Positions 7,832-56,571 of a DNA stretch of 64,000 nucleotides are shown here, one piece after another. How positions within the stretch are numbered: position 1 is the first letter of the stretch; every line of letters begins with the position of its first letter. Origin of the DNA: Methanococcoides sp. (GTDB lineage: Archaea > Halobacteriota > Methanosarcinia > Methanosarcinales > Methanosarcinaceae). Both the position numbers and the translations under genes were made by a program. Location: contig JAIORD010000027.1 of the NCBI GenBank assembly GCA_021108275.1, positions 62,001-126,000 of the forward strand, read 5' to 3'. Below the pieces are notes generated by a model. The model did not search any database. It saw only the letters and a program-made list of their open reading frames with translations, and was not told the DNA's origin.

Positions 7832-8797
7832 TTGACTGACAAGAAAATGGATATAATCAGAGCTTTGAAAAATGCAGGAACTGATCCAATTTCCGGTGAA
7901 GAACTTGGGCAAAGACTTGGTATTTCCAGAACGATGGTCTGGAAATATATTAAAGCACTTGGTGAGGAAGGCTATGTCATAAAATCCTCGCCTGGTTCCG
8001 GTCATGTTCTGGTCTCAGCGCCCGACAAACTTTATCCGTCGGAGATAATGGATGGTCTTGACACGAGTATCATCGGGGGGGATATTCGGTATTTCGATGA
8101 GGTTGATTCAACCAATGATGTCGCAAAGAAGATGGGACCACTGTCAGATGAAGGTTCTGTTGTAATTGCTGAAATGCAGGACAGTGGTCGTGGTCGTAAA
8201 GGTGGACATTGGGTATCTCCAAGGGGTGGTGTCTGGATGTCCGTTATCCTTAAACCGAATGTGGTTCCAGCATATGCGCCACGTTTTACTCTCATGGCCG
8301 GGGTTGCCGTTGCAAGGGCAATTCGTGAATTTGGTATTGAGGCATCTCTTAAATGGCCAAATGATGTTTTGGTCGGGGATAAGAAGGTCTGTGGAATTCT
8401 GACAGAACTGGATGCGGAAACCGATCAGATCAATTTTGTTGTCATTGGTATGGGTATCAATGTCAATGTTTCCATCGAAGACCTTTCGGAAGATATCAGG
8501 TCGAGTTCAACAAGTCTTAGTGAGATAAAAGGCGAAGAGCTGGATAGGATCGCTTTTGTTCAGGCATTGTTGAGGGCACTTGAAGATGAGTATGTCCGGT
8601 CTAAGACTTTAGGTTTCGATTCAATTCTTGAGGAGTGGAGATCCCTGTCTTCAACTATAGGTCGGGATGTGGATGTGGTGACGCCGCAAAGGATGATAAG
8701 CGGAAAAGCAGTAGGTATCACTGAAAATGGTACTCTTCTTGTGGAGACTGCAGAAGGTCTGGAAGAGATCGTTGCCGGAAGTTGCATTCATAGATAA
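7832..8797 (+). CDS. birA: Biotin-protein ligase with N-terminal HTH (BirA-type)
   Basis: The 321-residue protein attaches biotin to the carrier lysine of PycB. Residues about 1-60 form a winged HTH (GEELGQRLGISRTMVWKYI). The ligase domain has the biotinyl-AMP loop GRGRKGG near residue 118 and KWPNDV, and a C-terminal SH3-like domain ends it. The HTH suggests it may also repress transcription, as in E. coli BirA; that is inference. The start is TTG at 7832, because GGGGGGAT sits just upstream. The next in-frame ATG is at 7847. It follows pycA by 48 nt. Confidence 0.93.
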   Translation: MTDKKMDIIRALKNAGTDPISGEELGQRLGISRTMVWKYIKALGEEGYVIKSSPGSGHVLVSAPDKLYPSEIMDGLDTSIIGGDIRYFDEVDSTNDVAKKMGPLSDEGSVVIAEMQDSGRGRKGGHWVSPRGGVWMSVILKPNVVPAYAPRFTLMAGVAVARAIREFGIEASLKWPNDVLVGDKKVCGILTELDAETDQINFVVIGMGINVNVSIEDLSEDIRSSSTSLSEIKGEELDRIAFVQALLRALEDEYVRSKTLGFDSILEEWRSLSSTIGRDVDVVTPQRMISGKAVGITENGTLLVETAEGLEEIVAGSCIHR

Positions 8798-8800
8798 TGG

Positions 8801-9364
8801 GTGTGGCGCGTGGAACAAAGAGAGTTAAGACCTTTACTTTCCATCCTTTTGCTATTTTTAATATTTTTTATTTATGTCTTCCCTGTATCGGCTGCAAATG
8901 ATGATGTCCGCATCCGAATTATTGATGGTAAGGGTATTTTCATTGAGACCAAGGGTGAATGGCAGTTCAGTCAGGGATATCTCTTTGTGGTCAAGGATGT
9001 GAGTGATGATGGCGATGTTTGGGTGGAACTTTCGCTTGACAGTGTTGCTCTCAAGGATGGGATACTGAGCGAAGGTTCTGTTTTTACCTACTCGCATAAT
9101 TCAAAAGAGATATTTAACATTACTCTGGATGCCATTTACTATGGGCCTGACGGTGAATTGATCACATTCACTCCGGTATATCAGTATCTTGATCCGTCAC
9201 TACCTGCACCCGTGTTTGAGGAGCCGGACAGTTCCTCGAACGTTCCGAATATTCCTGTCGAAAATAACAGTACGGCAGAGAACGTTCCAGGATTCAGTTT
9301 TGTTATGGCTGTTTTGAGTATGGCTTGTTTTGTAATTTTCAAACGTTTCTCCTGGAATAAATAA
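8801..9364 (+). CDS. PGF-CTERM surface protein of unknown function
   Basis: The 187-residue product has an N-terminal signal peptide ending VFPVSAA, a beta-rich extracellular domain, a short Ser/Asn/Pro linker, and a C-terminal NVPGFSF plus hydrophobic stretch plus Lys/Arg tail. That layout is the PGF-CTERM sorting signal processed by archaeosortase A, so the protein is probably lipid-anchored at the S-layer. GTG starts at 8801 and 8810 are both possible; neither has a strong ribosome site. It begins 3 nt after birA but shows no link to biotin. Confidence 0.75.
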   Translation: MWRVEQRELRPLLSILLLFLIFFIYVFPVSAANDDVRIRIIDGKGIFIETKGEWQFSQGYLFVVKDVSDDGDVWVELSLDSVALKDGILSEGSVFTYSHNSKEIFNITLDAIYYGPDGELITFTPVYQYLDPSLPAPVFEEPDSSSNVPNIPVENNSTAENVPGFSFVMAVLSMACFVIFKRFSWNK

Positions 9365-9576
9365 TTGGAATTTAACAGGCATCATTCAAAAAAGTTGTCT
9401 GAGATATCGGAAAATCGTCATATGGATCGACTATGTCTATAGTTCTACTATTGATCTGAATATGGGTCCGACTGGATATATGCTGAAAATAAGTCCTTGT
9501 AATGATGAATGGACGTAAAAATGATAAATGATCAAATAACAATGTAAAATAAAAAATAATAAATGAGATAATAAGC

Positions 9577-10500
9577 TTAAAGCTTAAGATCTCCCTTCTC
9601 CATCAATAATCTAAGGTCTTCAAGACTCATCCTTCCTGTCTTTTCAAACTTCTCTTTTGCAACAATGTGTTTATCATCCAGTTTCTTCTCATCCTTTTCA
9701 ACCTGGATCTCATTGAGCTTGTCAAGATATACGCTGAGTTCATCTCTGAGCTCTGATACCTTTGTCTTCAGTGGGTCGATCTTTTCCCTTATGGGTGAGA
9801 CGACATCATAGGTCTCTTTGATCTGGGCATGATAGAGGTCTGCTTCCTTTCGAAGTTCATCGATCTTCTTGTAGGATGCAAGCATTGAAAGATGGTGTTT
9901 CTGTGACTCTTCTGCAAGTCCCTTTACATCCTTTCCAACAGTCCCATCGGCTTTGTAGATCGACTCTGATGATCTGTATGTTTCCACGATCTTGCTATGT
10001 AGCTCATCGGCCTGACTTGCAGCATCGATCCTCTCTCCAAGGTCGGAAAGTTTTTCGAAAATATCAATCTCATGTTTGAGGGGAATGTCTGCATTTAAGA
10101 ACTTATCAAGTTCGCCGGCATATGCTTTTGACAGAGATTCCACACTACCACGAGATTGCTTGTTGTATTCATCACGCTTTGTTTTAAGCTCGGTGATACT
10201 GCCGGTGACCTTGTCCTTTTCGCTGCGGATCTGATCTCTTGTGCCCTTTATCTCTGAGATCTTCTCATTAGCGATATCACGAAGTTTCTTCTCTTCGCGT
10301 GCCTTTGTTGCAAGTTCCTTTACTTGCGCGTTAAGCTTGTCCCTTTTCTCTTTCAGCTCATCGATATTTGTGCGATGGAGTTTCAGATCTCTAAAAACAC
10401 CTTTCAGGGTACGTTCGTTCTGTGTGATCTTCGTCCTGTAATCGTTAACGGTGGTCTTCAGGTCCTTTTCACTCATGGTTGATACATCTGTTGTGGTCAT
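9577..10500 (-). CDS. Archaeal coiled-coil protein (COG1340-like)
   Basis: The 307-residue protein is almost entirely charged heptad-rich coiled coil (K/E/D/R/L), interrupted near the middle by a less regular stretch. It ends with a conserved-looking EKFEKTGRMSLEDLRLLMEKG module, typical of archaeal COG1340 proteins of unknown function. It has no membrane segment or nucleotide-binding motif. Its start codon overlaps the stop of the upstream coiled-coil gene (ATGA), so translation is probably coupled. It is the last gene of the mcm cluster. Confidence 0.8.
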   Translation of the reverse strand: MTTTDVSTMSEKDLKTTVNDYRTKITQNERTLKGVFRDLKLHRTNIDELKEKRDKLNAQVKELATKAREEKKLRDIANEKISEIKGTRDQIRSEKDKVTGSITELKTKRDEYNKQSRGSVESLSKAYAGELDKFLNADIPLKHEIDIFEKLSDLGERIDAASQADELHSKIVETYRSSESIYKADGTVGKDVKGLAEESQKHHLSMLASYKKIDELRKEADLYHAQIKETYDVVSPIREKIDPLKTKVSELRDELSVYLDKLNEIQVEKDEKKLDDKHIVAKEKFEKTGRMSLEDLRLLMEKGDLKL

Positions 10501-11156
10501 GCGTCAGCCTCCGGCGTGTTCTCTTCAGTGACGGGATTCTTTTCCCAGTGCTCAAGGGCTTCATTATGGCTCTTTATTCTGTTTTCAAGCCATCCGTGGC
10601 GTGGTGAGATCGTCTTAAGTTCCTCAGTTGCTTTATGGAAGTTTTCGTCAAGGGCTTTAATACCAATGGTCCCTGCAAGCTCATTGCTGGCTTCGATAGC
10701 ACCATTGACCTTTGCTTTTATCTGTTGAACGGAGCTCTGGACGGTTTCATGTGTGCTCATACCATCCAGCTTGGTCAATAGTTCATCAACTACCTGCTTT
10801 TCTTCATTGATATTGATGAGGCGCCTGACTTTGGTAAATCCGTCATTTGCAGCATGCATCAGCTTGTTATCAAGCAGTTTGTCATCGATGTCAGTGAACA
10901 TGTTCCCAAGAACGTTCTCTGCCTGATGGTAGAGCTGTTGACGTTTCTCTTTCAGAACCTCAATGCGGGTCAGGGTATCTTCCTTTTCCTGCTTTGAGGA
11001 TCCTATCTGTTCTTTCAGTGCCTTTGATCTTCCATCGAGCTCTCTGAACTCTCTGTTGTATTCTTCCAGAAGACGCTTGTGCTTTGCTATAACGCTTTTG
11101 ATAAGCTCATCTTTGTCAAGAATGGAAGTTTCATTAATCATATTACTTTCACTCAT
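10497..11156 (-). CDS. Second coiled-coil protein, coupled to its downstream paralogue
   Basis: The 219-residue protein is mostly coiled coil (residues about 10-80 and 130-200) with an acidic tail. The ATG at 11156 is preceded by GGTG at suitable spacing. An in-frame start at 11210 would overlap the upstream DUF424 gene and is less likely. It overlaps the next coiled-coil gene by 4 nt, so the two products probably form a complex. Its function is unknown; it lies in the mcm-DUF424 gene string. Confidence 0.75.
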   Translation of the reverse strand: MSESNMINETSILDKDELIKSVIAKHKRLLEEYNREFRELDGRSKALKEQIGSSKQEKEDTLTRIEVLKEKRQQLYHQAENVLGNMFTDIDDKLLDNKLMHAANDGFTKVRRLININEEKQVVDELLTKLDGMSTHETVQSSVQQIKAKVNGAIEASNELAGTIGIKALDENFHKATEELKTISPRHGWLENRIKSHNEALEHWEKNPVTEENTPEADA

Positions 11157-11187
11157 ATTTACACCAATATTTTGATAAATGTAAAAT

Positions 11188-11478
11188 TCATAATCTGTAT
11201 ATCTGGGCATGTGGTATGCCGTCTATGTATATGACGCATTCCGGATCAATAGCACCAGAATCAATGGCGCATTGAACTGAATGTGTTCCAAATATGTTTG
11301 CACTCGGAGCGTTCCTTATAGCTTGTATGATGGTCTCTTCGGATGCTATCTCTCCTTTGTAGAAACCTTCCGAGATATCTATCACAATTTCACCTTTTAT
11401 CAGCTTCTTTCCGACCAGTTCTTTGTCACAAACAGCGACGAGGATCTGATTCGTGGATCTGTGTATTTTCAGGTACAT
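11188..11478 (-). CDS. DUF424 family protein
   Basis: The 96-residue protein begins MYLKIHR and contains AVCDKELVGK and the C-terminal NIFGTHSVQCAIDSG, the pattern of the archaeal DUF424 family. Its biochemical role is unknown. It starts 12 nt downstream of mcm, with GGCGAAG before the ATG, so it is co-transcribed with the helicase. The position suggests, but does not prove, a role near replication or translation. Confidence 0.88.
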   Translation of the reverse strand: MYLKIHRSTNQILVAVCDKELVGKKLIKGEIVIDISEGFYKGEIASEETIIQAIRNAPSANIFGTHSVQCAIDSGAIDPECVIYIDGIPHAQIYRL

Positions 11479-11490
11479 ATCTTCGCCTTA

Positions 11491-13581
11491 TTATACTAAT
11501 TTTATGTGCTTGCTATCGGGAGCTAACAGATCTCCCTGCTTTTTCATCTTAGATATAAGCTCTTCAGCTCTTTCCCTACTTATTTCTTCGGTCTCAGCTT
11601 CTGCATATACTTCTTCAAGGGGTGCTTTTCCACCTGCATGCCTGTCGCCGACAAGTTTGATTATGTCTTTGACATGATGTATCTTGTCACGCTGACTCTT
11701 GCTGGTTCCGGATGCAATTACGTCCACATCGAAAGCTCCGGTGTCGGGGTCTACTCCGACCTGGCGCATACAGGCCATGGATATTCGTGTGGTCCTTTTC
11801 GCATCATCAATAGTTACTATATTGCTTAAACGTATGCGTGCGCTTGCTTCAGCAAGTCTTACAAGGGCTTCCAGTTGTCTTGCAGTGACTGGTACTGGTG
11901 AATCTTTGCCTTCTCCCTGTTTGCGCAGGTCAAGATAGTAATTAATGATATGGTCTCTGGCATCATCTTCCATTATAGGGAAGATCCTTCTTCTTGCGTA
12001 CGCAACGTATTTTCTCAGCAAGTCGTTTTCAATGATGGGCATGATGACCGTCATATGAGAATCCACTTCTTCCTTTGTAATTGTTGAGTGTGGGACCCTC
12101 TGCCTTTGTTCGTTGAGCTCACCTGCATACTGGGATTTCAGTATGTGGTGTGCGATATTGCTGTCTTTGGTTCGGTCAGGCACATCAAGAAGTATAAAAA
12201 TAAGGTCGAATCTTGAGATAAGGGCCGGAGGCATATTGATCTGTTCTGCAAGGCCTTCGTATTTATCGAACCTTCCGTATTTCGGATTGGCTGCACCGAG
12301 TAATGCACATCTTGATTTCAATGTCGCAAGTATGCCTGCCTTTGCCACACTGATGGTCTGCTGTTCCATGGCTTCGTGCAGAGCACTTTTATCTTCCTTG
12401 CTCATCTTGTCCATTTCGTCAACTGCGGCAAGACCCATGTCTGCCATGACAAGTGCACCGGCTTCCAGTGTCCAGCGTCCGTCCCCAAGGTCATCCTTGA
12501 CAGCTGCAGCGGTAAGACCACTGGAAGATGCACTTTTACCTGATGCGAAAACACCACGTGGTGATATCTTCACCATGTATCTGAGCAACTGACTCTTTGC
12601 GATACCCGGGTCACCTACAAGTAATATATGTATATCGCCTCTGACCCTTGAACCATCAGGTAGCATCTTAGGTACTGCTGAGAACAACTGTAAGCTGAGT
12701 GCTTCCTTTATGTCTTCATATCCGTAGATGGAAGGTGCGATGGAACCTCTTATCATCTTATATATCTCAGGGTCATTTCCCATCTCAACGATGCGTTCTT
12801 CTTCTTCCGGTGAGATGTCGAGCTCATCGAATTCCTGATCTACATATTCGATAGAATTGGCATGGAGGACAAGGTCGTAGAATGTTGATTTTCCTTCTCT
12901 CAATGTTCTCTGGTGGGAACGGAGTACGCCATTGATAACAAGACGGTCACCTGGTTTAACAAGTCCTGCCAGGTCGTCCTCTGCATCGACATCCAGACTT
13001 TGGGGCTGGCTGCCACCTTTCAGGCTTTCCGGGGACTCCTGTACCTGGAGCTTTTGGGCATCCAGGAATGTTGATTGGTCGATCAGAAGCTTGAATGGTC
13101 CTTTCTTGCCACAGGATTCATTTTCACAATCTGTAGGTTCTACGAACTTAGGACCTCCCTGTGGCTCAAAACTGGTATTCTCACACCTCATGCACATAAA
13201 TGCTGCATTTGTTATCTTTGGCCTGACCTCGGTAGCTTTGCGTATCATGCCTTCGATGGATATGAATTTTAGAAGATGTTTACTTCGAAGTTCTCTGATA
13301 GCCACGCGATTGGGGACGTTTATGAACTGGACATGAGCCTCATCGAGGTCCTTCTCGATAGGTATGTCTATCTCCCTTAATGCCTGTTCAGCATAGGGTA
13401 TCACATCGTCCGGGTGTTCCAGTAGCTCGTATGCAAGGTCGGAATCGAATTGCTCGAGGTCGGGGAAATCAACAACAATACTTCTGAGCTCAGGGTACTC
13501 ATTTGCCAGCAGGAGTATTTCATCCCAGTAATAGCGCTTAAGAAAATCCCTGAACTTTTCATCCCATTTTATTTCACTCAT
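11491..13581 (-). CDS. mcm: MCM replicative DNA helicase
   Basis: The 696-residue protein is the hexameric 3'-5' helicase of the archaeal replisome. It has the N-terminal MCM domain with zinc motif CMRC...CENESC near residues 130-155, the AAA+ core with Walker A GDPGIAKSQLL, Walker B AAVDEMDKM, sensor AANPKYG and arginine finger SRFDL, and a C-terminal winged helix. No intein is present. ATG 13581 (MSEIKWDEKF) is chosen; an in-frame GTG at 13590 has no ribosome site. It leads the DUF424 and coiled-coil string. Confidence 0.97.
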   Translation of the reverse strand: MSEIKWDEKFRDFLKRYYWDEILLLANEYPELRSIVVDFPDLEQFDSDLAYELLEHPDDVIPYAEQALREIDIPIEKDLDEAHVQFINVPNRVAIRELRSKHLLKFISIEGMIRKATEVRPKITNAAFMCMRCENTSFEPQGGPKFVEPTDCENESCGKKGPFKLLIDQSTFLDAQKLQVQESPESLKGGSQPQSLDVDAEDDLAGLVKPGDRLVINGVLRSHQRTLREGKSTFYDLVLHANSIEYVDQEFDELDISPEEEERIVEMGNDPEIYKMIRGSIAPSIYGYEDIKEALSLQLFSAVPKMLPDGSRVRGDIHILLVGDPGIAKSQLLRYMVKISPRGVFASGKSASSSGLTAAAVKDDLGDGRWTLEAGALVMADMGLAAVDEMDKMSKEDKSALHEAMEQQTISVAKAGILATLKSRCALLGAANPKYGRFDKYEGLAEQINMPPALISRFDLIFILLDVPDRTKDSNIAHHILKSQYAGELNEQRQRVPHSTITKEEVDSHMTVIMPIIENDLLRKYVAYARRRIFPIMEDDARDHIINYYLDLRKQGEGKDSPVPVTARQLEALVRLAEASARIRLSNIVTIDDAKRTTRISMACMRQVGVDPDTGAFDVDVIASGTSKSQRDKIHHVKDIIKLVGDRHAGGKAPLEEVYAEAETEEISRERAEELISKMKKQGDLLAPDSKHIKLV

Positions 13582-13606
13582 GTAATCCACATTATTATAT
13601 TGAAAT

Positions 13607-13630
13607 GATACCTCAGGTATCGGAGATACC
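13607..13630. promoter_or_regulatory. Alternating GATACC/GGTATC repeats upstream of mcm
   Basis: GATACC-TCA-GGTATC-GGA-GATACC is read without interruption 26-49 nt upstream of the mcm start. Either adjacent pair forms a 6-bp stem with a 3-nt loop. The element lies in the 117-nt gap between mcm and the trmJ-like gene. It may be an operator or an RNA hairpin in the mcm leader. Confidence 0.45.
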
Positions 13631-13698
13631 AGAATACACTATGTACATATCAATATTTCGAGTCAATACTTTTAGAATGCTATCCTGCATGGTCCTGT

Positions 13699-14394
13699 TC
13701 ATTTGATATGGTTCTGGACCTTTCCAAGAAAACCCCTTAATGTCTGGACTTCCCTTGGCATGAGCTGTGCCCTTCCGAATATTCTTTTGAACATAAGGTG
13801 CGTCTTTTCCTTTTTGTGCGCAGGGTAATCGATACCATCGAGGACCTCGTCTATATGGTCATATAGCAATCTCAGGTCGAATCCCTCTGCAAGACTGTTC
13901 TCGCCTGCTGTTATCTGGCTCATTTCATAGAGCATGATGGTGACAGCATGTGAAAGGTTCATTATGGGATATATCTCGGATGTCGGTATGCTTACTATCA
14001 GATCGCTGAGTTTAAGTTCCTCGTTAGTGAATCCGTTGTCTTCCCTTCCAAAAAGGACTGCAACAGTTCCATTCGTTCCACTGAACTTTTCCTTTAGCTC
14101 CCTTGGGGTGTATGGTGGCATGCGTATGTGTTCATCGACTTTCAGTCCTGTGATGCCAGTGGTTGCAATGACTATATCACTGCCTTCAAGGGCCTTTTCG
14201 ATGGTATCAACTATCTTTGCTCCATCAAGGACATCGTATGCATGGGATGCAAGTGCTCTTGCTTCCATTTTCAGTTCGCAGGGGTTTACGAGTGTCAGGT
14301 CATAGAACCCGAAGTTCTTCATGGCTCTTGCGACCGATCCTACATTTCCCTGGTATAAAGGCTCTACAAGGATTATTTTCAGATCTAATGTCAT
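13699..14394 (-). CDS. TrmJ-like SPOUT RNA 2'-O-methyltransferase
   Basis: This is a 231-residue SpoU/TrmH-type enzyme. KIILVEPLYQGNVGSVARAM is motif 1, VAVLFGREDNGFTNEEL is motif 2, and PIMNLSHAVTIMLYE is motif 3 of the knotted SAM-binding fold. The closest described function is tRNA (Cm/Um32) 2'-O-methylation by TrmJ; the exact target is inferred. ATG 14394 is preferred over an in-frame TTG at 14415. It lies upstream of mcm on the same strand but 117 nt away, probably a separate unit. Confidence 0.88.
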   Translation of the reverse strand: MTLDLKIILVEPLYQGNVGSVARAMKNFGFYDLTLVNPCELKMEARALASHAYDVLDGAKIVDTIEKALEGSDIVIATTGITGLKVDEHIRMPPYTPRELKEKFSGTNGTVAVLFGREDNGFTNEELKLSDLIVSIPTSEIYPIMNLSHAVTIMLYEMSQITAGENSLAEGFDLRLLYDHIDEVLDGIDYPAHKKEKTHLMFKRIFGRAQLMPREVQTLRGFLGKVQNHIK

Positions 14395-14614
14395 CCAATC
14401 TCTGAATATCTCCAATACATGTATATTTTGCGCAACTACTAACAGGGGTCTCTAATATCGGTACCGGTCATTTTTTAATAAGAATGGAATTTTGATGGAA
14501 GGTATTTCTATGCATATACTGTCATTTAATTACAGTTCTGTTCAGTATTCCATAAACATTATTAGTAATCCTGATCATCTTATAATTGCAAATTTGATTT
14601 AGGAGGTACATTAA

Positions 14615-49971: not shown

Positions 49972-50775
49972 ATGGAAATCGATATACTTGAGTTATCGGA
50001 CAGATCAGCAAAGTTCATACTGTCAAATACAACTGCAGCTTTCGCAAACGGTGTTCGTCGTGCAATGCTTGCCGACGTACCTACGCTTGCGATCGATGAA
50101 GTGAATATCTATAACAATACTTCTGTTCTGTATGACGAACAGCTGGCATTGAGATTGGGCTTGATCCCACTCACTACCAGCCTCGACGACTTCGTTCCTC
50201 AGGATAAGTGTACATGCGGTGGGGAAGGTTGCCCCGCATGTACCGTTTCATTGACACTAAGTGCAGAAACGGATGAAAGTGGTCAGACCATAGTTCACTC
50301 CGGTGATATTGTGTCATCTGATCCGAATGTTCAACCGGCAGACAAGAACATCCCTATAATCGATCTTAGGGCTGGCCAGAAGGTTGTCCTTGAAGCAATT
50401 GCTCATATGGGCTATGGTAACAAGCATGCAAAGTGGCAGGCAGGCGTTGCCTGTGGCTATAAGATCATGCCGATCATCACCTTTGAGGGTTGTGACAGGT
50501 GCGGCGTCTGCGTCAATTCTTGTCCCCGGAACATCATTCAGCTCACAGATGAATCTGCAATGGTGGCTGATGAAGACCGTCTGAAGTGCTCACTTTGTAG
50601 ACTTTGTCAGGATTCATGTGACATTAATGCAATTACTGTAAGTGCAGATGAAAAATCATTCATTTTCAGTATGGAATCTGATGGTTCCTACACTGCTCAA
50701 CAGTTAATCTTAAATGCAGTGAATACTATTGAAGGCAAAGCTTCTGAGATGCAGAGCATCTTAAGCACATTGTAA
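49972..50775 (+). CDS. rpoD: RNA polymerase subunit D (Rpo3) with ferredoxin domain
   Basis: The 267-residue subunit starts the assembly platform of RNA polymerase with L, N and P. The alpha-like dimerisation domain (ANGVRRAMLADVPTLAIDEV) is split by an insertion carrying CDRCGVCVNSCP and CSLCRLCQDSC, two complete 4Fe-4S motifs. Methanosarcinal D subunits retain both clusters, which may link polymerase assembly to redox state. It closes the rps13 unit; the usual next gene, eL18, is not here. Confidence 0.96.
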   Translation: MEIDILELSDRSAKFILSNTTAAFANGVRRAMLADVPTLAIDEVNIYNNTSVLYDEQLALRLGLIPLTTSLDDFVPQDKCTCGGEGCPACTVSLTLSAETDESGQTIVHSGDIVSSDPNVQPADKNIPIIDLRAGQKVVLEAIAHMGYGNKHAKWQAGVACGYKIMPIITFEGCDRCGVCVNSCPRNIIQLTDESAMVADEDRLKCSLCRLCQDSCDINAITVSADEKSFIFSMESDGSYTAQQLILNAVNTIEGKASEMQSILSTL

Positions 50776-50826: not shown

Positions 50827-50914
50827 GCGGGGGTTGCCCAGCCAGGTCAAAGGCGCTAGGTTGAGGGCCTAGTCTCGTAGGAGTTCGTGTGTTCGAATCA
50901 CACCTCCCGCACCA
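50827..50914 (+). tRNA. tRNA-Leu (anticodon GAG), copy 1
   Basis: The acceptor GCGGGGG pairs with CTCCCGC (one G-U). The anticodon stem CTAGG/CCTAG encloses loop TTGAGGG, giving GAG. A long variable arm fits leucine, and the T arm is GTGTG-TTCGAAT-CACAC. Discriminator A at 50911 is followed by CCA, which may be encoded or chance. It follows rpoD by 51 nt. Confidence 0.95.
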
Positions 50915-50992
50915 AACATACTACAAATGTGAAAAAAAGCGATTCTGAGTTATTTCTGGATTGATGCTCTATTTACATTAATTTATCACCGT

Positions 50993-51080
50993 GCGGGGGT
51001 TGCCCAGCCAGGTCAAAGGCGCTAGGTTGAGGGCCTAGTCTCGTAGGAGTTCGTGTGTTCGAATCACACCTCCCGCACCA
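50993..51080 (+). tRNA. tRNA-Leu (anticodon GAG), copy 2
   Basis: The sequence is identical to the copy at 50827, including the CCA after the discriminator base. An 81-nt A/T-rich spacer separates it from each neighbour. Confidence 0.95.
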
Positions 51081-51158
51081 AACATACTACAAATGTGAAA
51101 AAAAGCGATTCTGAGTTATTTCTGGATTGATGCTCTATTTACATTAATTTATCACCGT

Positions 51159-51246
51159 GCGGGGGTTGCCCAGCCAGGTCAAAGGCGCTAGGTTGAGGGC
51201 CTAGTCTCGTAGGAGTTCGTGTGTTCGAATCACACCTCCCGCACCA
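51159..51246 (+). tRNA. tRNA-Leu (anticodon GAG), copy 3
   Basis: The sequence is identical to copies 1 and 2, again followed by CCA from the repeated spacer. Confidence 0.95.
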
Positions 51247-51324
51247 AACATACTACAAATGTGAAAAAAAGCGATTCTGAGTTATTTCTGGATTGATGCT
51301 CTATTTACATTAATTTATCACCGT

Positions 51325-51409
51325 GCGGGGGTTGCCCAGCCAGGTCAAAGGCGCTAGGTTGAGGGCCTAGTCTCGTAGGAGTTCGTGTGTTCGAATCACA
51401 CCTCCCGCA
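51325..51409 (+). tRNA. tRNA-Leu (anticodon GAG), copy 4
   Basis: The tRNA body is identical to the other copies, but the sequence after discriminator A is CTATTTT, so no CCA is encoded. This copy probably represents the original 3' flank, with the CCA-bearing spacers arising in the duplication. Confidence 0.95.
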
Positions 51410-51620
51410 CTATTTTAAATTAAGTTATTGAACATCCATGCATTTTTTATTATCTTTTGTTTTCAGATAGGTTATCTTTTGATATTTTAATTCAATAATC
51501 GCAAATCAATACTACAATTCCAATATCACAATCTCAACACTGCAAATGTGTTCTAAATGTCACTTTTGCGGTACAAAATAAAAAAAGAAAAGGACCACAT
51601 GTTGCACCCCTCTATCGATA

Positions 51621-53561
51621 TTACTCGTCCTTCTCAGTATGTTCGGCTACACCAAGAACAACTATCTTTGTTTCGATGAGCGTATTTGATTTTTCCATGA
51701 ACAGCTCGTCCTTTTTCACTTCTATCTTTACCGAATCATTGTCCATGTTAGCATCTTTCATGTACTTGTGTATGGTCTCATCACCAAGCCTGAGGGCATG
51801 CTCTACAGCTTCTTCATATTCATCAAAGCTTTCTCTTCCCTTTTCAGAGTACACGTAGAATTCCCAGTCCGGGGCAGCCATTGAAACAGGTCTGATAAGC
51901 ATTTCGACCCTTCGTACTCCCTTTGCGGCCAGCGCGCCTGCCGCATTACCCACACTGGCAAATTCCGGTAGGATCATCTCTGCATCGATGAGTTTTCTCA
52001 TACCCTCAAGATAAGCTACCACAGGTCCTCCAATAAGCACCACCGGGATCTCTACCTTGAACTTTATGGGTGAGTTCGTATCAAATGTCTTGCGTACTTC
52101 TTCCTTTGAATTATCTTCAAGGAAAAATGATACAAGATCTGCTGCCATGTTCTTTGTAAACTCATTCTTAACATGTTCTGCAAATTCCTTCCCGTCCATC
52201 TTGCACATTGAACCGAGGTGCTGCGCACCTGCCTTGGAAGCCTCTACACTATATTCAGTATAGTCTCCAAGCACATGTAGTGCATCTGTGGGTGTAAAAT
52301 TGATGGGTTGTATCAAACGTTTCTGCATAAGCATATCAAGGTGTTTATTAGTAGGAAGCTTATTCAGGCGGTTGCGTATTTCCCTTATTGATGTGGGTGT
52401 CTTGGAAATGGCTTCCAGTAATTCAGCCTCATAATTGCTCAGGTCGATAGGTTCGTAATCTGTTCTGATGAAGAATTTCGTAGGCTGGAAGTTCATACCA
52501 ATAATGCCTCTTGAAGGCATTGGATTATTGGTGAGCTGCTCCAGGAACTCTGGGTATTTCACTGCGGCCCTGCACAACGGAATGACCCTTCTGGGCCCGA
52601 TGGTCATCTTTGCCGCTCCTACCCATATGTCACTGTCACCGCCAAGGGCAGATGTTTCCATCTTTATCGCTTTGACCCTTGTCTTCCAACCACCTACAAC
52701 GGCGCCTGCATCGCTCATCTGCGGTACGCCATCATATATAACCGAAACATCGGTACTCGTACCACCTACATCGATCACTGCACAACTATCTCTCTTTGAA
52801 AGGAATGCAGCACCAACAAGACTTCCTGCAGGTCCTGAAAAGATGGATTCTATCGGCTTTTCGAGAGCGTTTTTGATACCTATGACCGACCCGTCACATT
52901 TGAGCATGAATATTTTTGCATCCATGCCCCTACTCCTTATCTCGGATTCCACGCTGGTCATGAACTTTTCAGTTATGGGTATCAATTGTGCATTGAAGAA
53001 TGCCGTCACTGCTCTTTCAAATGCACCAAGGTCCTGTGAAAGCTCGTGGGCGCAGACAACGGGCATTCCTGTGCTTTTCCTGACGATCTCCTTGACCTTC
53101 AGTTCATGTTCATGGTTTCGAATGCTAAAATATGAAGAAACTGCAAAAGCTGCCACTTTATCCTTAACACGGAGGGCAAATTTTCTCACTGCATCTTCAT
53201 CAAGGGGGTTTGCCTGAGCACCCCTGTGGTCATGTCCTCCGCTTACCTGAACATAATGCTCTGTGGGAAGATTGGTGCTAATATGATAATCTCCGACAAG
53301 GATAAGCCCAACAGGAAATCCTGTGCCCTCCAGGATCGTATTGGTGGAAAGGGTCGTTGAGACTGAAACGATCTCAACTTGTCCAAGTATGGATTGATCA
53401 AGGGAGTTCAATACATTCCTTATCCCTTCCAAAGGGTCCGGGTATGTCGTTAAAGCCTTGCTTGAGGCAAGTATCTCATTCTTTGAGTTCTCTACGATGA
53501 CAGCATCTGTGTAGGTGCCGCCGGCATCTATTCCAAGGCTCAATTTCATGCTAGTCTCCAT
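51621..53561 (-). CDS. HyuA-like hydantoinase/oxoprolinase ASKHA ATPase
   Basis: The 646-residue protein has the two ASKHA phosphate-binding motifs, LGIDAGGTYTDAVIVE at residue 8 and VIDVGGTSTDVSVI near residue 265, and an adenosine-motif-like SVGNAAGALAAKG near 560. It matches the N-methylhydantoinase A / oxoprolinase family. No HyuB partner is nearby. It begins directly after the Orc/Cdc6-like gene, in the operon headed by the MtmB-like gene. Since RamA, which reactivates methylamine corrinoid proteins, is also an ASKHA protein, an ATP-driven helper role is possible. It lacks RamA's iron-sulfur domain. Confidence 0.8.
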   Translation of the reverse strand: METSMKLSLGIDAGGTYTDAVIVENSKNEILASSKALTTYPDPLEGIRNVLNSLDQSILGQVEIVSVSTTLSTNTILEGTGFPVGLILVGDYHISTNLPTEHYVQVSGGHDHRGAQANPLDEDAVRKFALRVKDKVAAFAVSSYFSIRNHEHELKVKEIVRKSTGMPVVCAHELSQDLGAFERAVTAFFNAQLIPITEKFMTSVESEIRSRGMDAKIFMLKCDGSVIGIKNALEKPIESIFSGPAGSLVGAAFLSKRDSCAVIDVGGTSTDVSVIYDGVPQMSDAGAVVGGWKTRVKAIKMETSALGGDSDIWVGAAKMTIGPRRVIPLCRAAVKYPEFLEQLTNNPMPSRGIIGMNFQPTKFFIRTDYEPIDLSNYEAELLEAISKTPTSIREIRNRLNKLPTNKHLDMLMQKRLIQPINFTPTDALHVLGDYTEYSVEASKAGAQHLGSMCKMDGKEFAEHVKNEFTKNMAADLVSFFLEDNSKEEVRKTFDTNSPIKFKVEIPVVLIGGPVVAYLEGMRKLIDAEMILPEFASVGNAAGALAAKGVRRVEMLIRPVSMAAPDWEFYVYSEKGRESFDEYEEAVEHALRLGDETIHKYMKDANMDNDSVKIEVKKDELFMEKSNTLIETKIVVLGVAEHTEKDE

Positions 53562-54752
53562 TTAATTAATTCTCAGCTGCTTTAACCTGTAGTCTGAATG
53601 AAGGGCTGTCTCTATTTTGTGTGGACTTTTCTTCAATGCTACAAGACGGGTTTTCCCGTATCTCCCCCTGCTTCGCACAGGTGCGGAAATGAAACCTTCC
53701 ATGTCGAATTCTGAAACGATTCTGGATACACTGGTGCGGCCAAGCGGGTCAGTGTTCGTCTCCTCGCAAAACTTCCTGTAAATAGCTTCAATTTGTCCTG
53801 TAGTGACCTTGTCGTTCAACTCATTTGTCAGTTTGACAATACTTAAAAGAACCAGCTTCGAATTGAATGGCAGTTTTTCCATCGATCTTATCAGTTCTGA
53901 ATCACCCATTTCTTCGTTTGCAAGACGAATATGGTTTTCGGTGATCTCTCCTGATCCGGATGTGTCTGCAATATTCCCAGCTTTTTCCAGTAATGCGACC
54001 ACTTTTGAAGCATTGCCTTCTTCACCTGCCAGTTCTACACATAATTTAATTATCTCACTGTTTAAAGCTCTTTCTGCAAATGCAGAAGTGTTCCTTTTCT
54101 CAAGAATTTGTGTGATCTGATCACTATCATATGGTCTAAACACGAGGTTTTTCTGTTGAAGTGCTGAAACGATGCTTTGTTCAAGTTGTCCGTGGAATGT
54201 AAGATCATCTGTAATGCCTATAATGCCTATGAAAATATCATCCTCTATGCTCATATTTTCTCCTGCATGGCTAAGGTCGTACAGTATCGTGTGGTTCTTG
54301 AGTAATTCTATCTCATCGAATACAACTATTATTGTATAATGTGTCTCGTTCAGAGCTTTCCAGAGTGCTCTGTAATATTTACCCATGGAAAGTCCTGTTC
54401 TTGGGACCTCTGCCTCAGGAGATACTTTGTTGAGTATTTCCTGTATGATCCTGCTGGTAGTATTGATCTTCTGACAATTGATGAATACAGGAACAACATT
54501 GAGATCATCCTTCCCAATGTTCTCTATAAGCTGTTTCAGGACATATCTCACGACAGTTGTCTTTCCAGTACCTTTATTTCCTGAAATAATTGCATTTGCA
54601 GGCTCGCCATGATGCAGCACAGGTCTGATTATCTCAACAAGTTCCTTTATCTCCTTGTCCCTTCCGACAAGTTCTTCTGGCATGTATCTGGATGATAATA
54701 CAGACCTGTCCCTGAATATTTTGCTTGCACCCGTCCCGAATATATTAGTCAT
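53562..54752 (-). CDS. Orc1/Cdc6-like AAA+ ATPase with winged helix
   Basis: The 396-residue protein has Walker A GNKGTGKTTVVRY near residue 58, Walker B VVFDEIELL near 145, a sensor segment IIGITDDL near 180, and a C-terminal winged-helix domain (residues about 300-390, RTSVSRIVSEFDMEGFIS). This is the archaeal Orc1/Cdc6 layout. It lies 15 nt after the MtmB-like gene and abuts the HyuA-like gene, so it is not in a replication cluster. It may be an initiator paralogue used as a DNA-binding regulator; a true initiator role cannot be excluded. Confidence 0.85.
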   Translation of the reverse strand: MTNIFGTGASKIFRDRSVLSSRYMPEELVGRDKEIKELVEIIRPVLHHGEPANAIISGNKGTGKTTVVRYVLKQLIENIGKDDLNVVPVFINCQKINTTSRIIQEILNKVSPEAEVPRTGLSMGKYYRALWKALNETHYTIIVVFDEIELLKNHTILYDLSHAGENMSIEDDIFIGIIGITDDLTFHGQLEQSIVSALQQKNLVFRPYDSDQITQILEKRNTSAFAERALNSEIIKLCVELAGEEGNASKVVALLEKAGNIADTSGSGEITENHIRLANEEMGDSELIRSMEKLPFNSKLVLLSIVKLTNELNDKVTTGQIEAIYRKFCEETNTDPLGRTSVSRIVSEFDMEGFISAPVRSRGRYGKTRLVALKKSPHKIETALHSDYRLKQLRIN

Positions 54753-54767
54753 GTTCTTTCCACAGCC

Positions 54768-56138
54768 TCATTCAATGTTACAGTAGTTCTCTATCTCCGT
54801 GAAAATATCTCTGTAAAGCTTCAGGTATTCCTCTGTTGGTTTCATTTCATATTCTGATCTAACTTTATAACATTCATTGAATGGCTTTCCTTCAGGCGGA
54901 TACTGTAAAAGGTTTTCGTATTTTGCGTATATTTTGCTTACAGCTTCGTTTGCTTCTTCGAGTGTAAGTCCTGTTGCCAGGTGGGCGATCTCTCCCATAA
55001 ATCTTGATTCAAGGCCTGTTGAGTGGTCTGCACCTGCTCCTCTTGCACCCACAGGTCCAACCAACATATCTCTTCCTGACACGGTATCTCCAATGGCTTG
55101 TGCGGCAGTTTCATAGAACATCATATCTGTACAGCATCCAGCACGGTTCCAGTAATATCTTCCTGTGTAGTGGTGCATATTCCTTGAAATTGCCATGGAG
55201 GAAAGGTTGGATGCCCACATGATCTCTTCTGTGGAGGATGAATGAGTATTTACATGGACAGCACCCGACAGGTGAATACTTGCTCCTGTCACTATCTTTG
55301 ACTGGATGGTCTCTGCAACATCAACTATTGCTAAACCTTCGGGTGTGCCGATACCTGTGCCGCCGAATACAGGACATTGGCCACTAAGGAAATGATTGCC
55401 GTGTTCAAGATGGAATATGGATTTGTAAAATGTCTCATAGTCGGTCTTAAGTTCGTCAAGCTGGTAAACTTCCTGTACATCCGCAGTGGAATACAGTTCC
55501 TCGGATGATACTAGCATATATGCCGGTGAAATGGTGGGTGTGCCGGGACCCATCAATGCCAGTCCTTCACGACCTGCAAGTTTTGTTGCAAGTCTTTCTT
55601 GTCTTGCTTCCTTCAAAGCTGCAAGCATCTCAAAAGGAGTCTTCCCTCGTATTCCCTTCCCTCCCATTTTTTCCAGAGCTCCTGCATAAACACCTTGTAT
55701 AATAGGTTCCATTGCAGAACTTAAATGGACTTCAAGGAAATTTTCTTCTGATACAGTACCACCCATTGGCCCGCCAATAATGACAGGAGGTTCAGAGTCC
55801 ATTGTATACCTAAAAGGCACAATGACCTTTTCCTTAAATCTTCCTATTTCCAGTACTTTAGAACTATTGACTGATCTCCTGATATCCTCTTCATCGATCT
55901 TGATGCTTTTCTTTGTATCAATACAGTATATTCCAACTGATGTCAGGAGTTCAACAGCAGCTTCAAAAACTGAATCTGCCAGACTCATGTTTGTTGGGAC
56001 AAAACTACCGCTTTCACGAATGATGCCATATTTTTCTGCAAGTTCCTGTGATCTCATGAAAACTTCCATGTCATGCTTTTCTTCAGCTTTTTCATCACCA
56101 GTCGTTGCAGATTTCAGATGTTTGTAGATCTCGATCAT
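54768..56138 (-). CDS. MtmB-family methyltransferase homologue lacking pyrrolysine
   Basis: The 456-residue protein aligns along its length with monomethylamine methyltransferase MtmB: SFVPTNMSLADSVFEA, GGPMGGTVSEE, GRDMLVGPVGARGAG and KPFNECYKV match MtmB positions. In MtmB an in-frame UAG encodes pyrrolysine in a GVxGPET context; here the matching segment GLALMGPGT has Met196 (ATG at 55551-55553), and no in-frame TAG exists. The MtmB segment NQYY near residue 333 reads GRYY here, so the Gln is also changed. It probably acts on another methyl donor or has a different role. No corrinoid protein gene is adjacent. Confidence 0.85.
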   Translation of the reverse strand: MIEIYKHLKSATTGDEKAEEKHDMEVFMRSQELAEKYGIIRESGSFVPTNMSLADSVFEAAVELLTSVGIYCIDTKKSIKIDEEDIRRSVNSSKVLEIGRFKEKVIVPFRYTMDSEPPVIIGGPMGGTVSEENFLEVHLSSAMEPIIQGVYAGALEKMGGKGIRGKTPFEMLAALKEARQERLATKLAGREGLALMGPGTPTISPAYMLVSSEELYSTADVQEVYQLDELKTDYETFYKSIFHLEHGNHFLSGQCPVFGGTGIGTPEGLAIVDVAETIQSKIVTGASIHLSGAVHVNTHSSSTEEIMWASNLSSMAISRNMHHYTGRYYWNRAGCCTDMMFYETAAQAIGDTVSGRDMLVGPVGARGAGADHSTGLESRFMGEIAHLATGLTLEEANEAVSKIYAKYENLLQYPPEGKPFNECYKVRSEYEMKPTEEYLKLYRDIFTEIENYCNIE

Positions 56139-56179
56139 TTCAATTGCTCCTTTTTTGTTTTATGAGGGCTGTCAAATTT

Positions 56180-56267
56180 CCATGTAAATGTTACTTATAC
56201 CTATATTGACATGGAACGTTATTTATAGTTTTCCATGTGTGTCAAAAAGAACCTATGTTGACATGGA
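56180..56267 (-). promoter_or_regulatory. Promoter of the MtmB-like operon with four CCATGT/ACATGG half-sites
   Basis: Half-sites lie at 56180-56185 (CCATGT), 56209-56214 (ACATGG), 56233-56238 (CCATGT) and 56261-56266 (ACATGG). ACCTATRTTGACATGGA occurs at 56199 and 56251. On the minus strand CTATAAATAA (about 56219-56228) is a good TATA box, lying between TTGACATGGAA and TTCCATGT. The arrangement suggests cooperative binding of a dimeric regulator over the promoter, with a leader of about 60 nt to the ATG. Confidence 0.65.
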
Positions 56268-56356: not shown

Positions 56357-56437
56357 ATGGATGATTTCTTTATAGAATTAGTTAACAGGGCAAGATACTA
56401 TGAACAATTTGAAGAATTCCTAAGAGCTCATAGGTGA
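56357..56437 (+). CDS. 26-residue small ORF divergent from the MtmB-like operon
   Basis: The frame encodes a helical, amphipathic peptide (FFIELVNRARYYEQFEEFLR) of 26 residues. GAGGTGA lies 7 nt before the ATG, and TTTAATATATG near 56312-56322 is a TATA-like element about 25 nt before the expected transcript start. A hairpin follows it. Promoter, ribosome site and terminator together support a real small gene. I recognise no family. Confidence 0.5.
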   Translation: MDDFFIELVNRARYYEQFEEFLRAHR

Positions 56438-56452
56438 GTTTCTACAACATTC

Positions 56453-56500
56453 GGCCGTAGCTTCCTCCATCCCGTCAAACCGTTTGCTTTCACTACGGCC
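56453..56500 (+). terminator. Inverted repeat downstream of the small ORF
   Basis: GGCCGTAG and CTACGGCC form an 8-bp stem around 32 nt that itself contains CAAAC-C-GTTTG. Pyrimidine-rich sequence follows. It lies between the small ORF and the 3' end of uppS and could terminate either or both transcripts. Confidence 0.45.
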
Positions 56501-56571
56501 CCTTTCTTCTCTTTATGATGGATGTTTGTAAAAGCTCAATTTCGGATACGTTCTTCTTCTTTGCATCGATT

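Follow-up and report, generated by a model that had tools for sequence, protein, structure and literature searches.

A pyrrolysine-free MtmB homologue shares a conserved Methanococcoides operon with an Orc1/Cdc6 paralogue

Pyrrolysine-free enzymes of the MtmB family had no assigned function until a 2026 report on MtqB, a homologue from Methanococcoides methylutens Q3c that demethylates tetramethylammonium and choline (Kashyap et al. 2026, PMC13044021). In Q3c, mtqB lies directly downstream of an MtbC-like gene (MtqC), and MtqB is the sole pyrrolysine-free methyltransferase reported to be produced on QMA and choline (PMC13044021); choline use is not universal in Methanococcoides (PMC7374477). 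Pyrrolysine-free relatives of a pyrrolysine (Pyl) methyltransferase also occur among the MttB homologues (COG5598), such as MtgB, which belong to a different family, PF06253. As for the regulatory side of the present locus, Orc1-2 of Sulfolobus/Saccharolobus, an Orc1 that does not act as an initiator, controls promoters, its own among them (PMC9738581).

Like MtqB, the protein described here is a Pyl-free member of the MtmB family in Methanococcoides, with aromatic residues and a cysteine in the pocket region; it belongs, however, to another clade, and its gene lies in an operon with genes for Cdc6-like and HyuA-type proteins instead of beside an MtqC-type gene. The initial annotation had drawn a parallel with the Pyl-free MttB homologues, which holds in that an MtmB-family protein without Pyl carries Met at the Pyl position. 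The likeness extends to a distant shared barrel (9yce, Z 24.7), and a genome-wide search found no Pyl-free MttB. The comparison with Orc1-2 concerns a putative non-initiator role at promoters: Orc1-2 is a global DNA-damage regulator with an ANTTTC motif, whereas the protein encoded here would be confined to its own operon, where ORB-like dyads surround a single TATA box. The replacement of Pyl by Met is real, yet Pyl-free MtmB homologues were already known; the new part is the operon with its Orc1/Cdc6 paralogue rather than the substitution, and the clade itself is uncharacterised.

The gene occupies positions 54768-56138 on the minus strand of the window, i.e. the whole stretch of 64,000 nucleotides that was analysed, taken from a Methanococcoides-like assembly of 2.67 Mb. 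It encodes a 456-aa MtmB-family (PF05369) methyltransferase homologue, and its closest named relative is that of M. seepicolus LLY (98%). The PF05369 profile matches residues 2-452 with E=1.2e-161 and 539 bits against a cut-off of 25, covering profile positions 1-448 of 450. The AlphaFold model, built from a 23-sequence input, has a pLDDT of 93 and aligns with 1NTH at Z 59.0 and 1.5 Å over 450 residues. Membership in the MtmB family, as initially annotated, is thus borne out by both the profile and the predicted structure.

The frame is open over all 456 residues, and the in-frame UAG that Pyl-dependent MtmB requires is absent, in agreement with the earlier statement that the gene has no in-frame TAG. 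In the phmmer comparison with 1L2Q/1NTH (E 8e-78 for 1L2Q), the segment gmgvXgpe of M. barkeri MtmB, where X is Pyl202, pairs with glalMgpg of the window protein, and the same column is given by MAFFT with ~90 MtmB sequences. The M. barkeri reference in this alignment was the PDB match sequence with its ends added; by blastp its identity to the L015 copy is 100% (rounded). Met196 therefore stands at the Pyl202 position, as had been proposed; its ATG codon lies at 55551-55553 (minus strand), within the stretch 55540-55565 originally singled out, and the model placed on 1NTH locates the residue in the barrel strand 194-197. Since the genome also contains two genuine TAG-containing mtmB genes besides two Pyl-free ones, Pyl-dependent MtmB has not been lost from it.

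The active-site residues of MtmB, E229, E259, Q333 and Y335, are only partly retained. The window protein shares with M. barkeri MtmB1 (1L2Q/1NTH) the PF05369 assignment, the whole-length fold and the equivalent of E229 (E223), but it has Met, Gly253, Tyr328 and Trp330 in place of Pyl202, E259, Q333 and Y335, is ~33% identical to Pyl-MtmB, and has no mtmC gene adjoining. The segment N332-Q333-Y334-Y335 corresponds to R327-Y328-Y329-W330 (RYYW); the initial annotation was right that NQYY is replaced, but its reading as GRYY was one column off.

An IQ-TREE analysis of 55 rows of MtmB-family proteins places the window protein in a clade of 29 rows, here called clade A, with a support of 100/98 and apart from Pyl-MtmB. 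The MtqB-like proteins (L106-L108 and L197) join Pyl-MtmB with a support of 100/99. Some long branches meet in this tree, including that between the MtqB-like group and Pyl-MtmB, as an IQ-TREE warning indicates, so that we trust the unity of clade A more than the precise position of the MtqB-like group. The expectation that the protein would group with MtmB sequences stands as far as PF05369 is concerned, whereas within the family it falls into a third clade, outside both the Pyl-MtmB and the MtqB-like groups. Clade A is distributed across Methanosarcinaceae and comprises Methanococcoides, Methanohalophilus, Methanohalobium, Methanosalsum, Methanolobus and a few unclassified MAGs, the genera being partly inferred from named loci. 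The gene is present in most, nearly all, of the Methanococcoides genomes searched; none was found in the genome taken as M. burtonii (G017).

Throughout clade A the residue at the Pyl site is hydrophobic, being Met in most members and Phe, Leu, Val or Ile in the others. E229 is mostly kept, with Lys in three proteins; E259 is replaced by Gly or Ser, with Asp in one; Q333 is mostly Tyr, with Phe and His also seen; and Y335 is mostly Trp. The dN/dS ratio of the clade A mtmB genes is 0.03-0.06; dS approaches saturation in several comparisons, but the close pairs agree. The ratios are 0.06-0.09 for hyuA and 0.08-0.20 for cdc6L. Since such values reflect strong purifying selection, a loss of function in clade A is unlikely, and the sequence data argue for a protein that works. 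A further Pyl-free MtmB homologue, belonging to another clade, is encoded at 7866-9233 of locus L109 (G018:C3:39501-58000), where it clusters with MttB-, MtbB- and corrinoid-like genes.

Downstream of mtmB, after a gap of 15 bp, lies the gene for an Orc1/Cdc6-family AAA+ winged-helix protein (53562-54752, minus strand), which is followed with 0 bp spacing by that for a 646-aa HyuA-type (hydantoinase/oxoprolinase) ASKHA protein (51621-53561, minus strand). The HyuA assignment is based on PF05378 (119.7 bits) and PF01968 (105.4 bits, covering only 146 of 291 positions), and no HyuB-type ORF was found beside hyuA at this locus. The order mtmB, cdc6-like, hyuA is kept in most Methanococcoides genomes and in genome G032, and persists at MtmB identities down to 76%; genome G066 has mtmB and the cdc6-like gene without an adjacent hyuA. 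HyuA-like paralogues adjoin MttB and MtaBC genes. Hydantoinase genes have been reported from bacterial glycine-betaine methyltransferase clusters (PMC9768040) and from near mtaCB2 in M. acetivorans (PMC11619418).

No corrinoid gene adjoins the window mtmB, which has uppS and a small ORF on its upstream side. A dedicated corrinoid partner was also sought in the whole genome and rejected: all seven B12-binding_2 matches belong to MtmC, MttC, MtbC or MtaC genes, so there is no orphan corrinoid gene. In other subclades of clade A, genes for BCCT betaine/choline transporters adjoin two relatives (L103 and L120), an MtbA gene adjoins a third (L119), and some, judged by eye, lie beside a cobalamin-type ABC transporter; subclades with these neighbours are without cdc6. 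In Methanolobus bombayensis, a 48% identical cdc6-like gene and a corrinoid gene point away from each other, and the mtmB homologue follows the latter.

The second Pyl-free copy in the genome, at C7:144908, is 82% identical; with it come hyuA, a uppS fragment and a cdc6-like gene split into two frames, the copy of the operon covering 9081-14412 of locus L110 (G000:C7:135000-154185). Its partner in the tree is a copy from another Methanococcoides genome. Given this grouping, the identity and the uppS fragment, the segment seems to be present here a second time in an imported form. In genome G023, the native site (L166, G023:C1:29143) retains a deletion remnant, consisting of one promoter box, a cdc6 scrap and the 3' end of hyuA.

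The Cdc6-like protein matches TIGR02928 with E=3.3e-104 (348.7 bits against 181.3) and PF09079 with 82.5 against 25.1, and its assignment also draws on Cdc6_C, Cdc6_lid and alignments. A census identifies it as the third paralogue of the genome, the two other Orc1/Cdc6 genes being the presumed housekeeping ones. The Walker A and B motifs and the wing of the winged helix are retained, and the sensor-2 motif GDAR has become GNAS. Relatives of at least 46% identity are confined to genomes carrying a clade A gene. Outside the operon group, the nearest relative (41.5%) is the Orc1/Cdc6 initiator of plasmid pMETEV01 from Methanohalobium evestigatum, which differs in being plasmid-borne and in having no adjoining methyltransferase in the stretch read. 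A plasmid derivation of the Cdc6-like protein was considered on this ground and not retained, as the tree has no supported join. Judged by titles and abstracts, no link between Orc1/Cdc6 and methylamine operons was found in the literature.

Upstream of mtmB we found two ORB-like boxes (TCCATGTSAANNNNGGT). The proximal box, TCCATGTCAATATAGGT, lies at 56199-56215 (minus strand) and with the inverted half CATGGAA spans 56178-56214; the distal box, TCCATGTCAACATAGGT, lies 52 bp from it at 56251-56267 (minus strand) and spans 56231-56266 with its inverted half. Between them is a 10-bp TATA-box-like element, ACTATAAATA (56220-56229, minus strand), whose position is conserved across species in the footprint alignment. 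The boxes are direct repeats 49-53 bp apart flanking this element, with deviating numbers in genome G032, which has three, and genome G019, which keeps one. At up to 2 mismatches they occur at 13 of 13 loci of the cdc6 subclade, at 0 of 51 Pyl-mtmB loci and at no other Pyl-free locus; in a mononucleotide shuffle control, a single box appeared in 15 of 2000 cases. Apart from the two exact matches, no site in the window has fewer than 2 mismatches. Among 11 Methanococcoides genomes, the full dyad is found only at this promoter, at the C7 copy or at the G023 remnant, and the reversed control pattern gave 0.

As the loci are related, part of the conservation of the boxes within the genus reflects shared ancestry; more weight attaches to their persistence from one genus to another, where the flanking sequence does not align. 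Their likeness to the chromosomal ORBs (TTCCAGTCGAAACnATGGGGT), judged by eye, is partial. No recognisable box was found at the M. bombayensis locus despite its 48% cdc6-like gene. Boxes were also sought upstream of the cdc6 gene on pMETEV01, where two loose matches with 3 and 4 mismatches, 53 bp apart, were discarded because chance matches are too many at this level. On the same plasmid, L182 1381-1602 (= L205) contains four 73-nt direct repeats with a spacing of 49-50 bp and containing AGAGGGGT, which are likely plasmid origin repeats.

On balance, we slightly favour reading the locus as a dedicated catabolic operon, mtmB(non-Pyl)-cdc6L-hyuA, in which a Pyl-free corrinoid methyltransferase stands under a co-opted Orc1/Cdc6 protein; we infer its activity, substrate class, corrinoid partner and DNA binding. 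The MtmB homologue would most likely be a working corrinoid-protein methyltransferase without Pyl, in which Met196 would take up the room of the Pyl ring, an N-methylated cation would sit in a pocket that includes Tyr328 and Trp330 (for Q333 and Y335), and the methyl group would be passed directly to the Co(I) of a corrinoid protein whose gene lies elsewhere. In a genome without an orphan corrinoid gene, MtmC, MtbC or MttC are possible shared partners. HyuA may serve as an accessory ATPase, and the Orc1/Cdc6 paralogue would most likely regulate the transcription of its own operon by acting on the two ORB-like boxes astride the TATA box.

The presence of Met at the Pyl position of an MtmB-family protein implies a substrate or chemistry unlike Pyl-dependent monomethylamine demethylation. 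The initial annotation had concluded that either the substrate differs or the chemistry is lost; the difference is upheld, but lost chemistry is unlikely in view of the low dN/dS, the intact fold and the conserved operon. Judging by the aromatic replacements, the pocket may accommodate a methylated cation. A quaternary N-methyl compound, or one that is bulky in some other way, is the probable substrate; our preference is for an N-methylated cation that is not TMA. Should Q3c carry a clade A gene, QMA and choline would not be the inducing substrates of that gene, because MtqB is the only Pyl-free methyltransferase reported to be produced on them. Choline is, moreover, used by only part of the genus (PMC7374477), while clade A occurs in nearly all Methanococcoides. 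More speculatively, Orc1/Cdc6 may have been recruited as a local, dedicated regulator through the paired ORB-like boxes, with the Pyl-free MtmB of the operon acting on a substrate new for methanogens; we regard this extended proposal as possible rather than probable.

Is the window protein simply the orthologue of MtqB? The two share the genus and the Pyl-free MtmB family, and in both a Cys follows the E259/Q260 positions and the Q333 and Y335 positions are aromatic. But the MtqB-like proteins L106, L107 and L108, matched and named by gene context, are ~30% identical to the window protein, have Cys in place of E259 and Val, Gln or Ile where Pyl would stand, and group with Pyl-MtmB, while the MtbC-like upstream gene is missing at the window locus. 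On identity, gene context and tree, as judged with these context-named proteins, MtqB orthology is thus rejected, and we consider it very unlikely. Still less credit can be given to a decaying Pyl-MtmB paralogue, whether one whose TAG has recently become ATG or one that is now a pseudogene. Such an origin would fit the family membership and the two Pyl copies in the same genome, yet it is at odds with a deep separate clade, the low identity to Pyl-MtmB and an open frame under strong purifying selection; the recent codon change is refuted by the tree together with dN/dS, and a pseudogene or loss of function by dN/dS.

Two other explanations concern the partnership with the Cdc6-like protein. 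The MtmB homologue might have no catalysis and serve as a sensor of substrate or methyl status with the Cdc6-like regulator and HyuA, which would account for the lack of an adjoining corrinoid protein, the operon shared with a putative DNA-binding AAA+ protein and the loss of E259 and Q333. However, relatives of the same clade adjoin MtbA or BCCT genes without cdc6, or a corrinoid gene, the dN/dS is very low across the whole enzyme fold and E229 is kept; we know of no precedent for an MtmB homologue as a sensor, and this role appears improbable. The rival with most weight, though still unlikely, is that the Cdc6-like protein is a replication initiator and the boxes are an origin from a plasmid-derived segment, its link with mtmB being incidental. 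The pMETEV01 initiator as closest protein outside the operon group, the resemblance of the boxes to ORBs and the duplication or deletion of the segment between close relatives are consistent with this possibility. Against it, the boxes are direct repeats around a 10-bp TATA element with mtmB following immediately, unlike the ORBs of the chromosomal origin at C26, which are inverted and ~290 bp apart; moreover, the gene order is held to 76% MtmB identity, the sensor-2 motif is lost, and the tree gives no supported placement among plasmid initiators.

Clade A may mark an overlooked methane-yielding substrate, because it is widespread and yet no function for it was found in the literature searched. 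If the Cdc6-like protein is the switch of the operon, it would be a further member of the initiator family turned transcription factor, beside Sulfolobus Orc1-2, and a case tied to one metabolic operon.

The surroundings of the operon showed several further features. A conserved 26-aa ORF (MDDFFIELVNRARYYEQFEEFLRAHR, 56357-56437, plus strand) lies between uppS and mtmB, divergent from the latter, and is also present at other Methanococcoides loci and in the G023 remnant; in genome G019 it stays with uppS though mtmB is 6 kb away. Between uppS and this ORF is a G+C-rich hairpin (56450-56502, GGCCGTAG...CTACGGCC) without an Rfam match, and Rfam over 50-58 kb gave tRNAs only. Four tandem, nearly identical tRNA-Leu(GAG) genes with 166-bp spacing occupy 50827-51410 (plus strand), and an RNA polymerase subunit D with an inserted 4Fe-4S ferredoxin-like domain is encoded at 49972-50775 (plus strand).
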